Positions 32,283 through 39,549 of a DNA stretch of 39,549 nucleotides are shown piece after piece. Under the pieces are notes generated by a model. That model saw nothing but the letters and a program-made list of their open reading frames with translations, did not search any database and was not told the DNA's origin. The translations under genes and the position numbers were made by a program. The stretch comes from Bacteroidales bacterium (GTDB lineage: Bacteria > Bacteroidota > Bacteroidia > Bacteroidales > UBA12077): the NCBI GenBank assembly GCA_027859205.1, contig JAQIBH010000108.1:1-39549 (forward strand), read 5' to 3'. Each line of letters begins with the position of its first letter. Position 1 is the stretch's first letter.

Positions 32283-33710
32283 TTAGTCAGTTTTCATTAC
32301 AGATATTTGACCAGATCTGTAATCAATTACTTTAACTTCTTGACCTTTATTTATAAAACCTATTTCTGATATAGCATCATATATTTCGTCATCAATTTCT
32401 ACTTTACCGCTTGGACGTAGGTTGGTTGAGGCAATTCCAATACTACCGATTAATTCTTTTTGTTTGCTTTCAACTCCAATAAATCCATCTTCTTTCTTTT
32501 GTGTTGAATTTAAAACGATCCAAGAAAAGGCATGTGAGGTAAGCATCTTTTTACTTAAATATAGCGATAGTATAAATGATAAAAATATAGAAACAGAAAC
32601 AATCAGTAATGATTTCAATACAGTTACAACAGCTTCTGTGGCATGAAATTCAAATTCAAAAATAATATTATCAACCATGCTTAATACCAAACCTGTTAAA
32701 GCTAATGTAAAACCTCCGATTCCTGCAATTCCAAATCCCGGAATAACAAATATTTCAAGGATTATTAAAATCAAACCTACAGCAAAAATCACCATTTCCC
32801 AGTTTTCTGCTAAACCTTCCAAATATAATGGAGCAAAGTATAATATTGCAGCCAAAACTGCTGCTCCAAGAGGGAATCCAATTCCTGGACTTTGTAATTC
32901 AAAATAAATACCGCCTACTATTAGCATAATTAATATACCTTGGATAGCAGGGCTTATCAAAAGACCAATAAAGCTTTCTAGTTTAGTAGGTTCGTATTTG
33001 CTTATTTCATAATTTTCAATTTCGGCGTGTATTAGCAGTTCTTTAATATTTTCAACTGTTGCTTCACTATATCCGTTTTCTAAAGCCTCGTTAGCTGTGA
33101 ATGCTACAATTTGTCCTGTATCTGAAACATTTTCAATATATATTCTTGGATCAACCATTGCTTCCGCAATTTTTGGATCTCTTTTCCATTTCATTATAGT
33201 ATCGCCGGTTTCAGTTACAATTGTATCTTTTCCGTGTGCTTCAGCTGTTGCTCGCATTGTAGATCGCATATACGATTGGTATTTTTCGGGCATTATTTTT
33301 CCTGTTTGGTCAACTACCGATGCTGATCCAATTTTGGCTCCGGTTTTCATATAAATTCTGTCGGCGGCAATGGAAATTAATGCTCCGGCCGAAGCCGCAT
33401 TATTCACGATAAACACATAAACAGGAATAGAACAGTCAAGAATTTTTGTTCTTATAGAATCTGCCATATTTACCATTCCACCATATGTGTTCACATTAAT
33501 TATAATATAATCAGCATTAGCTTTTTTAGCTTCATCAAAACTTTTCATGGTTTGTCGCCACATTCCAGGATCAATATCTTTATTAATATCAAAAACAAAA
33601 ATATTGGTTTTTGTGGAATCAGAAATTTGGATTGTATCGCTTTGAGCAACTAAAATTGAACTGTGAAATATTATTGCAATTAGAATAATTAGAGTTTGTA
33701 TATTTTTCAT
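32283..33710 (-). CDS. NfeD/ClpP-class membrane serine protease
   Basis: This 475-residue protein has a signal peptide (about residues 1-23). A ClpP-like domain follows (about 35-220) with the serine in N-N-A-A-S-A-G-A (S107) and a lysine in P-E-K-Y-Q (K143), the Ser-Lys dyad of NfeD/PH1510 enzymes. Four or more membrane segments (about 240-395) and a C-terminal NfeD OB-fold domain complete the long form. These proteases cut C-terminal hydrophobic regions of partner membrane proteins such as stomatin-like proteins; none is adjacent here. It precedes GNAT by 1 bp. The gene starts 39 bp from the edge of a MITE, which therefore occupies its upstream region. Confidence 0.88.
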   Translation of the reverse strand: MKNIQTLIILIAIIFHSSILVAQSDTIQISDSTKTNIFVFDINKDIDPGMWRQTMKSFDEAKKANADYIIINVNTYGGMVNMADSIRTKILDCSIPVYVFIVNNAASAGALISIAADRIYMKTGAKIGSASVVDQTGKIMPEKYQSYMRSTMRATAEAHGKDTIVTETGDTIMKWKRDPKIAEAMVDPRIYIENVSDTGQIVAFTANEALENGYSEATVENIKELLIHAEIENYEISKYEPTKLESFIGLLISPAIQGILIMLIVGGIYFELQSPGIGFPLGAAVLAAILYFAPLYLEGLAENWEMVIFAVGLILIILEIFVIPGFGIAGIGGFTLALTGLVLSMVDNIIFEFEFHATEAVVTVLKSLLIVSVSIFLSFILSLYLSKKMLTSHAFSWIVLNSTQKKEDGFIGVESKQKELIGSIGIASTNLRPSGKVEIDDEIYDAISEIGFINKGQEVKVIDYRSGQISVMKTD

Positions 33711-33749
33711 ATTTCTTTATTTTTTGTCAATGTTGATTATATAATTTTT

Positions 33750-33892
33750 TAGTAGTGTCCGATAAAAGTATATGGACTAAAGTCCATCAATGAATTATTT
33801 TCTGTAACCCCAGCCTTAAGGCTGGGGTTATTCAAGTTCACAAACCAATTGGGCTTTAGCCCTATTATTTGATCTTATTTCGGACACTACTG
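33750..33892. mobile_element. 143-bp MITE with terminal inverted repeats and 9-bp target duplication
   Basis: The ends TAGTAGTGTCCGA (33750-33762) and TCGGACACTACTG (33880-33892) are inverted repeats with one mismatch. The 9-bp direct repeat ATAATTTTT flanks them on the left (33741-33749) and the right (33893-33901). Inside are three nested palindromes: 33772-33787, a perfect 26-bp dyad at 33805-33830 and 33851-33862. There is no ORF. The right target copy overlaps the mqnA stop codon, and the left end is 39 bp upstream of nfeD. It is a non-autonomous element of unknown parent. Confidence 0.8.
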
Positions 33893-33899
33893 ATAATTT

Positions 33900-34661
33900 T
33901 TATTGAAAGTCTTTAGCATATTCTAAAAATAAATTCATTCCTTCAATTTTTTTATCATCAAGTTGATAATCAATGTTTTTTTCAAGATATGTTTTGGTAT
34001 CTATATGATTCAATAAAACGGAGAAATCATAAGTTCTTATAACATCATCAATATGTTCAATTCCGTTTTTTAAGGCTGCATTAAATTCAGATTTAAAAGT
34101 TTCACCCAAATTTTTATTACTAACCCATGCAGCAAAAACAAATGGTAAGTCAGTGTTTTTAATCCATTCTTCGGCAAGGTCATAAACATAAGGGAAATTA
34201 TTAGCAACAACTAATGCTTTATCACCAATAATAACTGCTGCTTCATTATCTTTAATTCTATTTTCAAATCCCTCGGATGTATCAGTCCACTTAACATTTA
34301 TTTTCCAAAACCGTTTTGCAAGAATACGAGTTAGCATTACTGAGGATCTTGAATGATAATCAAGATATATAGTGTCAATCTCATTTAATGGTTTGAATGA
34401 TGCTAAGATAACTGAACGTACAGGTCCTGATGCTCCAATGCAATAATCCGAAATAATTTCAGAGTGATTAAGTTTTGGAATCACTGCAACAGGAATTAAT
34501 CCCAGATCAACTTTATTATCCAATAATTTTTGTGCACAAACCGATGGAATATCCTTGGAAAGTTCAATATGGTTTATTATTTTACTATTTTCAATTCCAT
34601 AAATAAATGGAAGAGTATTTGTATAAGATACAGCTGATATTCTAATTTTTGTCATTTGCAT
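33900..34661 (-). CDS. mqnA: Chorismate dehydratase of the futalosine menaquinone pathway
   Basis: This 253-residue cytosolic enzyme makes 3-[(1-carboxyvinyl)oxy]benzoate from chorismate, the first step of futalosine menaquinone synthesis. Family motifs include V-S-Y-T-N-T-L-P-F near residues 11-19, V-D-L-G-L-I-P-V-A and L-D-Y-H-S-R-S-S-V. The length fits MqnA. It is upstream of nfeD on the same strand, but a MITE separates the two. The TAA stop lies in the MITE's target duplication. An mqnP-like gene is elsewhere in this window. Confidence 0.92.
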   Translation of the reverse strand: MQMTKIRISAVSYTNTLPFIYGIENSKIINHIELSKDIPSVCAQKLLDNKVDLGLIPVAVIPKLNHSEIISDYCIGASGPVRSVILASFKPLNEIDTIYLDYHSRSSVMLTRILAKRFWKINVKWTDTSEGFENRIKDNEAAVIIGDKALVVANNFPYVYDLAEEWIKNTDLPFVFAAWVSNKNLGETFKSEFNAALKNGIEHIDDVIRTYDFSVLLNHIDTKTYLEKNIDYQLDDKKIEGMNLFLEYAKDFQ

Positions 34662-38272: not shown

Positions 38273-39549
38273 ATGAGGACTAAAAATACACTATTTTACA
38301 AGCAAAATCAAGCGTATATTGTAGATTTTTCAGCAGAAGAGATCAGTTCTGATACTCCTGTTTTTTTAGGTGAAAAGATAGAGCGTAAGCATCATTTAAT
38401 AAGACACATAAGTAACTTAATTAATGACACAAGAGATAAAGATAAAATTACATATAGTAATGAGCACATATTAAAGCAGCGAGTTTTTCTAATGATGCAA
38501 GGTTATGAAGATGCAAATGATGTTGATCATTTAAAGCATGATCCTGTCATAAAAAATGTACTGGGTGGAGATTTAGCTTCACAACCAACAATATCCCGCT
38601 TTGAAAACAATATTGATAAATCCACTATTTTTAACATTTTATATGGCTGGCTTAATAAATATGTTGAAAGCTTAGCAGGAAGAAAACAAGTAATTATTGA
38701 TATTGATGCAACTGATGATCCGACACATGGTACACAACAACTATCAATGTATAATGGCTATTATGGACAATTTATGTATAATGAGCTTTTATTTCATGAT
38801 GGAGAAACTGGACAAATAATATTACCCGTTTTAAGACCAGGGAATAGTCATTCAAATAAATGGTATGTATCCATTCTAAAGAGAGTAATTAAAGCGATTA
38901 AATTGCAATATCCAGAAATAAAGATATTTATTAGAGCAGATAGTGGTTTTAGTAATGCGCCTTTCTACAAGTTGGCAGAAGATGAATCATTGTATTACGC
39001 TATAGGTTTAGCAACAAATGAAGTATTAAAAAGAAAGGTTAAACGAGCAGAAAATGCAGTAAGGCATTTGCATTTATCCCAAAAAGAAAAACACCAGCAT
39101 TTCATAAGCTTTCAATATCAAGCTGGTTCGTGGCATGCTCCACAACAATGTTATTCAAAAATTGAAAGTACCGGTATTGGAATGAATGTTAGACATTTTG
39201 TGAGCAATCTACCAGAAAAAGAAGCAAGAGAAATATATTTTGGTTTTTATGTAAAAAGAGGAGATACTAGCGAGAATAGGATTAAAGAATTGAAAAATAT
39301 GTGTTTTTCCGATAGGCTTTCTAATCATAATTTTTGGGCAAACTTCATGAGATTAATAATTAGCAGCTTAACTTATGAGATGTTTCTTATTATTAAGAAT
39401 ATGATCAGAAAAACAAGATTTAAGAAAGCTCATAAATGGCAAATAGATAACATTAGGTTATACCTTTTAAAAGCTGGTGGCACAATCAAAAAAACAACAA
39501 AACGAATCTATTTTAAAATATCTAAAGCCTTTGTTTATAAAGATTTACT
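38273..39549 (+). CDS. IS1380-family transposase (3' end outside window)
   Basis: The frame is open from ATG 38273 to the window edge, 425 codons with no stop seen. Features of DDE IS1380 transposases are visible: I-D-I-D-A-T-D-D (about 142-149), R-A-D-S-G-F (about 221-226) and E-N-R-I-K-E-L-K (about 334-341). The N-terminal region has P-T-I-S-R-F-E-N, also typical. No frameshift was seen in the visible part, so the copy appears intact so far. Codon use is like the neighbours. Confidence 0.88.
   Translation, partial: MRTKNTLFYKQNQAYIVDFSAEEISSDTPVFLGEKIERKHHLIRHISNLINDTRDKDKITYSNEHILKQRVFLMMQGYEDANDVDHLKHDPVIKNVLGGDLASQPTISRFENNIDKSTIFNILYGWLNKYVESLAGRKQVIIDIDATDDPTHGTQQLSMYNGYYGQFMYNELLFHDGETGQIILPVLRPGNSHSNKWYVSILKRVIKAIKLQYPEIKIFIRADSGFSNAPFYKLAEDESLYYAIGLATNEVLKRKVKRAENAVRHLHLSQKEKHQHFISFQYQAGSWHAPQQCYSKIESTGIGMNVRHFVSNLPEKEAREIYFGFYVKRGDTSENRIKELKNMCFSDRLSNHNFWANFMRLIISSLTYEMFLIIKNMIRKTRFKKAHKWQIDNIRLYLLKAGGTIKKTTKRIYFKISKAFVYKDL

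Follow-up and report, generated by a model that had tools for sequence, protein, structure and literature searches.

The stretch of DNA analyzed here, referred to below as the window (39,549 nucleotides), contains between the genes mqnA and nfeD a segment which raises a twofold question: what kind of sequence it is, and how it came to lie there. The segment is a non-coding element of 143 bp (33750-33892) with 13-bp inverted ends, TAGTAGTGTCCGA at 33750-33762 and TCGGACACTACTG at 33880-33892, which differ by one mismatch. It is bracketed by a perfect 9-bp target duplication, the direct repeat ATAATTTTT, whose left copy lies at 33741-33749 and whose right copy, at 33893-33901, extends over the final two bases of the mqnA stop codon. 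Between the duplicated bases the element may be divided into a left “shell” of 24 nt (33750-33773, a length common to eight copies of the element), a “core” of 89 bp (33774-33862), and a right shell of 30 nt (33863-33892), defined by the sequence and by the same eight copies. The core contains three palindromes: GGACTAAAGTCC on the left (33774-33785), the perfect 26-bp dyad TAACCCCAGCCTTAAGGCTGGGGTTA in the centre (33805-33830), both defined by sequence and paired changes, and GGGCTTTAGCCC on the right (33851-33862), a motif found also beside the Y1 transposase genes that make up one clade. All of these features are given on the plus strand, apart from the central palindrome, to which no strand is assigned.

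The neighbouring genes, identified by Pfam, both lie on the minus strand, with mqnA (33900-34661; PF02621) as the upstream and nfeD (32283-33710; PF25145, PF24961 and PF01957) as the downstream member of the pair. The element proper begins 39 nt upstream of the nfeD start, so that the first-pass annotation was accurate in placing it at that distance with a duplication reaching the mqnA stop codon. No open reading frame of at least 80 amino acids overlaps 33750-33892, and the annotation's description of a segment with no reading frame and three palindromes, one of them a perfect 26-bp dyad, likewise stands. In the rest of the window, neither the end pattern TAGTGTCCGA nor the arm pattern has a second match at up to one mismatch. 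The core model, built from an alignment which includes the window's own copy, scores 92.8 bits here, and its next match in the window scores 13.6 bits (E 0.47).

A segment of this kind could be a functional RNA or regulatory structure belonging to the mqnA-nfeD pair (a terminator, a processing hairpin or a protein site) instead of a passenger. The predicted RNA fold of 33741-33901 is very stable, at -61.1 kcal/mol where shuffled sequences average -28.5 (z = -8.4, with none of 200 shuffles as good), the segment occupies the spacer of a gene pair which is kept in 16 of 17 relatives, and one terminator-like site is present on the nfeD strand where 0.1 would be expected. The stem of this site, however, is weak, comprising 6 pairs only, and the matches to Rfam families, a rimP leader at 29.3 bits (gathering score 47) and rnk_pseudo at 20.7 bits (gathering score 55), fall below threshold and are taken as chance matches of a strong hairpin. 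Promoter-like matches are near the shuffled level (3 compared to 2.0). The regulatory reading is further opposed by the absence of the element from this position in all 17 relatives and by the presence of a sister copy and of core copies at other loci, and we consider it very improbable. As to the suggestion of the first-pass annotation that the element may separate or control transcription of mqnA and nfeD, the one candidate feature is the weak terminator-like site on the nfeD strand.

The search for mqnA found the locus in 17 relatives of the genus, none of them from G001 or G002, and the element is absent at the locus in every one. In 16 of the 17, nfeD adjoins mqnA with no core between them. 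In the seventeenth, G019, whose locus L283 is cut at the contig start and begins inside mqnA, an acetyltransferase-like gene (L283:488-973) directly follows mqnA, nfeD does not lie between the two, and there is again no core. The mqnA-nfeD spacers in the relatives measure 2-134 nt when computed from the first listed start and 7-134 nt when computed from the homologous start, which is defined as the start 73-77 amino acids before the conserved motif. The corresponding gap in the window is 189 nt (37 + 143 + 9), of which 37 nt remain once the element and a single repeat copy are taken away. Because a sister copy exists, copies are found in relatives, an insertion sequence has matching ends and 17 of 17 relatives lack the element at this site, we identify the window element as a MITE-like insertion which duplicated its target. 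The claim of the first-pass annotation that a 143-bp MITE with a 9-bp duplication lies between mqnA and nfeD is thus borne out by the ends (12/13), the perfect repeat, the sister copy and the empty sites; other copies do exist, and the orthologous junctions do not share the segment as ancestral sequence. At this place, between two genes which are conserved as a pair, the insertion is probably near-neutral.

The outer parts of the element can be traced through its copies. A search of the window's own genome with the 143 bp yielded one sister, together with several copies of the inner part alone. The sister is 85% identical over element positions 9-143, and is bounded by ends and a 9-bp duplication (ATTTTTTGT) of its own. 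When the relatives were searched with the element, with the best 8 candidates per genome scored and the search repeated for 11 genomes, further copies appeared, of the kind for which the first-pass annotation had proposed a search. Altogether eight copies, picked by eye from five assemblies (G000, G001, G016, G019 and UBA2287), share the 24-nt left and 30-nt right shell round the core, here called “shell A”; L071 and L130, which when cut at 24/30 nt have no matching right end, are not counted. The 9-bp duplication is exact in four of the eight (L001, L002, L033 and L171), agrees at 8/9 positions in three (L035, L051 and L189), and is absent in L034.

Ends of the shell-A type are also present on insertion sequences, and so are not confined to core-bearing elements. 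In G016 an IS4/DUF4372 transposase gene (L120:2224-3468) is bounded by CATTAGTGTCCGACTAAA and the inverted TTTAGTCGGTTAATAATG, the contig ending two bases past the right end of the insertion sequence. A second IS4/DUF4372 insertion sequence, whose transposase gene was assigned by a PF14294 search, is found in G014 (L285) with both ends present and no clear 9-bp duplication. Insertion sequences with matching ends, such as the first-pass annotation had proposed to look for, are present in these two genomes. Of the 20 genus genomes, 5 have DUF4372 matches, some of them partial. The draft genome to which the window belongs (209 contigs, 95.5% complete) yielded no DUF4372 gene and no such full-length relative, so that no current mover of shell A is known there. 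In G006, a family of coreless 250-bp MITEs (L110, L111, L113 and L115-L118) has IS4-type ends like those of shell A; a 9-bp duplication was recognized by eye in six of the eight copies that were read, in one case beside a point change at the end, while L110 (7 matching bases) and L117 have none.

The DDE_Tnp_1 loci of the window's own genome (L065-L068) were also considered as a source of shell A, and are not taken as such because they show the end patterns only at three or more mismatches. One of them is the IS1380-type gene at the right edge of the window, where an IS1380-family transposase frame (NF033539, PF13701) occupies 38273-39547 and is cut short by the contig's right end. At about 1700-1970 of L121 in G016, an IS4-type end has beside it a short palindromic element which is AT-rich and has TAGGTGTCCGAT-like ends.

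The inner part of the element is distributed differently from the shell, since cores occur also without shell A, and many are in no recognizable shell at all. The core model, applied to the best 150 candidates per genome so that counts may be low, has at least 22 matches in the window's own genome when both strands are counted, corresponding to about 11 cores, and matches in at least 13 of the 20 genus genomes. A core-pattern search of genome contigs gave 36 stretches, of which 35 lie in records titled Bacteroidota or groups within it. The remaining stretch (L200:6083-6171) lies in a contig titled as a Nitrospinota MAG, and represents either transfer or mis-binning.

The first-pass annotation suggested selection for a folded arm, a proposal which can be evaluated by asking whether changes in the palindromes are paired. 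The alignment comprises 40 cores, chosen by eye for spread from 81 filtered cores of 84-91 bp (90 having been found). In these the spacers vary freely, and 840 of 840 paired cells stay paired. Four pairs (23 cells) have changes on both sides, more than in slid controls and in all but a few shuffles: of 500 shuffles, 15 attain the observed count of pairs with double-sided changes, and none attains the count of cells. The central pair 43-50 takes six standard pair types with no unpaired cell. The cores were picked using degenerate arm and centre filters, which leave central pairs 43-50 and 44-49 unfixed, and because these filters are palindromic the pairing counts are partly circular, above all in the two arms. 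The paired changes in the sequences accordingly lend support to some force which would keep the core palindromes paired, support that is in part circular, and the suggestion of selection is upheld to that degree.

The relationship between core and shell is clarified by the occurrence of the same core in a second, unrelated MITE-like shell, “shell B” (GGCTCTAGTTTAATTTAGCGTTG), which has 8-bp duplications. A plain inverted-repeat score, computed around 84 of 85 cores (one being left out), gives 18 cores above the 95th and 3 above the 99th percentile of a cross-locus control, and 24 and 18, respectively, above those percentiles of a shuffle control; this score is only moderately informative, and was replaced by a joint end-plus-duplication test covering all shells. 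In the joint test 21 of 89 cores pass, whereas 20 control runs in which right flanks were exchanged between loci averaged 2.15 and never exceeded 5 (one of 90 cores was left out because its flanks are too short). The cores were collected by homology searches with the full 143 bp, a route biased towards shell A, by a core-pattern scan, and by a shell-B pattern search (L212 and L215). Those that pass include the window element and sister copies, and comprise ten shell-B ends (5 with exact duplications and 5 with one mismatch), six shell-A ends and five weaker cases. At most 20 of them are independent, because the shell-B pair L057/L159 appears to be a single inherited site present in two genomes. 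Shell B in turn is found with a different interior, a repeat of the CTTAGTG...TTTGTGGC type, at six loci (L206, L211, L217, L222, L225 and L232) which have the same ends and an exchanged middle. An autonomous shell-B element was sought between distant shell-B ends, and no transposase-like frame was recognized there by eye. In other genomes the core is enclosed by four further shells (C-F), which are defined by inverted repeats only.

These observations bear on the simplest alternative, in which the element is a plain MITE, the palindromes are the original interior of its family, and the solitary cores are decayed MITEs that have lost their ends. Such a history would fit the constant position of the core in all eight shell-A copies, and has a parallel in Coxiella, where truncated QMITE2 copies resemble REPs (PMC5896051). 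But the same core occupies the unrelated shell B, with duplications of 8 bp, as well as further shells recognized by inverted repeats; shell B and ends of the shell-A type are each found with other interiors; and the core palindrome abuts Y1 transposase genes. Since the decay of one MITE family does not yield such mixing of shells and cores, we regard the plain-MITE history as improbable. What holds of the simple-MITE reading in the first-pass annotation is the MITE-like insertion; the three palindromes, by comparison, constitute an independent repeat family, which is linked to a Y1 transposase and is found alone and in other shells as well.

The link to Y1 (HuH) transposases is specific to one clade. 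The palindrome GGGCTTTAGCCC or its inverse, allowing at most one mismatch, lies within about 115 nt of the Y1 gene at all 11 loci examined of a single IS200-like clade, whose members are 56-100% identical to the C20 gene of the window's own genome, and at 0 of 19 other Y1 loci; the count covers 30 of 40 matches, contig ends truncate several of the 19 loci outside the clade, and the ten other matches include G016:C76, a 40-residue fragment 70% identical to the clade. In five of the 11 clade loci the stop codon of the Y1 gene is inside the palindrome GGGC-TAA-AGCCC, with further palindromes outside (flanking palindrome GGGCTAAAGCCC; L236, L238, L239, L240 and L243). All 11 members carry the motif Y---Q--HH, and their HuH motif is DHIH, EHIH, DHLH, EHLH or DHVH, the strict form DH[IV]H occurring in only some. 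Because the same Y---Q--HH motif is present in the 19 palindrome-free Y1 loci (18 in one comparison, and L253), the palindrome is linked to the one clade and not to the subclass as a whole.

The abundance of the core across genomes points in the same direction. Among the best 150 candidates from each genome, core matches are commoner in clade-bearing genomes (medians 13 vs 0 per genome, Mann-Whitney P = 0.007). A first count, which compared the presence or absence of any core with that of the clade, was not significant (Fisher P = 0.20), and a split at five or more core matches gave P = 0.002 with a cut chosen after the counts had been seen. Cores occur without the Y1 clade in G011, G012, G017 and G002, with one marginal match in G014, and G010 has a Y1 clade gene with no core match among its best 150 candidates. 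At L133:596-763, two tandem cores beside a Y1 gene share one palindrome arm, in the manner of a BIME, and at L064 in the window's own genome (contig C89) a Y1 transposase gene is broken by a TAA stop. Because the palindrome is found at 11 of 11 clade loci and at none of the 19 others, the likeliest identity of the core is that of a REP/BIME-like repeat which belongs to the Y1-clade transposase and is carried by the MITE. The repeat may be termed REP-like but not a GTAG REP, because a GTAG/GTGG head is rare and inconsistently placed: of 90 cores, 8 have a GT[AG]G within 9 nt of an outer palindrome, and its distance varies among them.

The manner in which cores enter shells is a separate matter. 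The Y1 transposase could target the single-stranded or cruciform loops of palindromic MITEs, in which case cores would be placed preferentially in the centres of MITEs. In one representative of each of the six shells the core is near the centre (left fraction 0.39-0.48), with P = 0.004 if 13-nt arms suffice and 0.047 if 18-nt arms are needed, and shells A and B have target duplications. However, the centrality test is post hoc and uses one copy per shell, with C-F defined by inverted repeats alone and the outer ends of shell A set at 35/41 nt instead of 24/30. Insertions away from the centre would moreover destroy the MITE and so go unseen, and many cores lie in no recognizable shell. Loop targeting is in our estimation unlikely. 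A broader proposal, that a Y1 clade of the TnpAY1 subclass 1.2 type in Bacteroidota has its own REP-like units and inserts them in the middle of palindromic MITEs that are unrelated to one another, a single-stranded DNA system thus spreading on the back of several DDE transposon families, is put forward only tentatively, as unlikely.

The explanation that best accommodates the comparisons made here is that the element is a composite MITE, in which a DUF4372-type IS4 shell surrounds a REP/BIME-like core linked to the Y1 clade, the whole having been inserted as a unit. Judged from the sequences, this is very likely. Two mobile systems appear to be nested, because the ends match one kind of mobile DNA and the middle matches a second, unrelated kind. 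Given the observed nested anatomy, the separate occurrence of core and shell, the target duplications, the empty sites and the association of the palindrome with Y1 genes, we infer which enzyme moved which part and in what order, as follows. A Y1 transposase most likely generated the core and would earlier have put it into a MITE. The MITE would then have taken the core to new sites as a passenger, a role suggested by the eight shell-A copies, which keep identical 24-nt and 30-nt shells round the core; this fixed 24/30 geometry suggests that the shell-A composites may all descend from one nesting event. The outer 24 and 30 nt would represent the ends of a DUF4372-type IS4-family insertion sequence, and a transposase of that type, acting in trans, would have brought in all 143 bp as one unit, 7 bp past the stop codon of mqnA, duplicating 9 bp, as the ends, the duplication and the empty sites indicate.

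The spread of REP repeats is described as poorly understood (PMC8266576). A core which is found beside a Y1 gene, alone, and in MITEs with target duplications provides insertions that can be compared with one another, and it suggests a testable second route of REP spread, by hitchhiking on DDE transposons. The pairing of Y1 gene and palindrome also supplies a candidate substrate for a type of transposase for which none is listed.

Each layer of the element can be compared with known systems. The shell resembles the IS4-family insertion sequences with DUF4372 (NCBIfam NF033592, Pfam PF14294) in its CATTAGTGTCCGA-type terminal inverted repeats and in the 9-bp duplications seen in MITEs with such ends; the window element differs in having no transposase gene and in having the core as its interior. 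The whole resembles QMITE2 of Coxiella burnetii, a MITE of 150-190 bp with 7-11 nt direct repeats which contains a REP, and whose small end-less copies look like REPs (PMC5896051). The REP of QMITE2, however, is of the GTAG type, whereas the present core has no consistent GTAG/GTGG head, is linked to a Y1 clade, and occurs in at least two unrelated shells; in the available portion of the QMITE2 description (PMC5896051) no REP with these palindromes was found. In the available text of PMC2817692, GGGCTTTAGCCC appears only within a GTAG REP of Haemophilus influenzae. The core and its Y1 gene resemble the REP/RAYT system (REPtron), in which inverted palindromes lie on either side of a Y1 HuH gene and are scattered elsewhere in the genome as well (PMC2817692, PMC6006769), but they differ in the lack of a consistent GTAG/GTGG head and in Y1 proteins which carry Y---Q--HH, the signature of TnpAY1 subclass 1.2 (PMC6006769). 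For this subclass the available portion of the same source gives the HuH motif as DH[IV]H and describes a conserved subclass-specific C-terminal domain, lists no REPs, and reports generally no IS200-type ends (PMC6006769). No published description of the core, or of a MITE carrying it, was found in the open-licence full texts searched. MITEs with a REP inside, as in QMITE2, and REPtrons are already known; as far as the literature searched shows, what is new is the Bacteroidota core family, the linkage of this family to one Y1 clade (the type being listed without REPs), and the occurrence of its cores in MITEs of more than one family.
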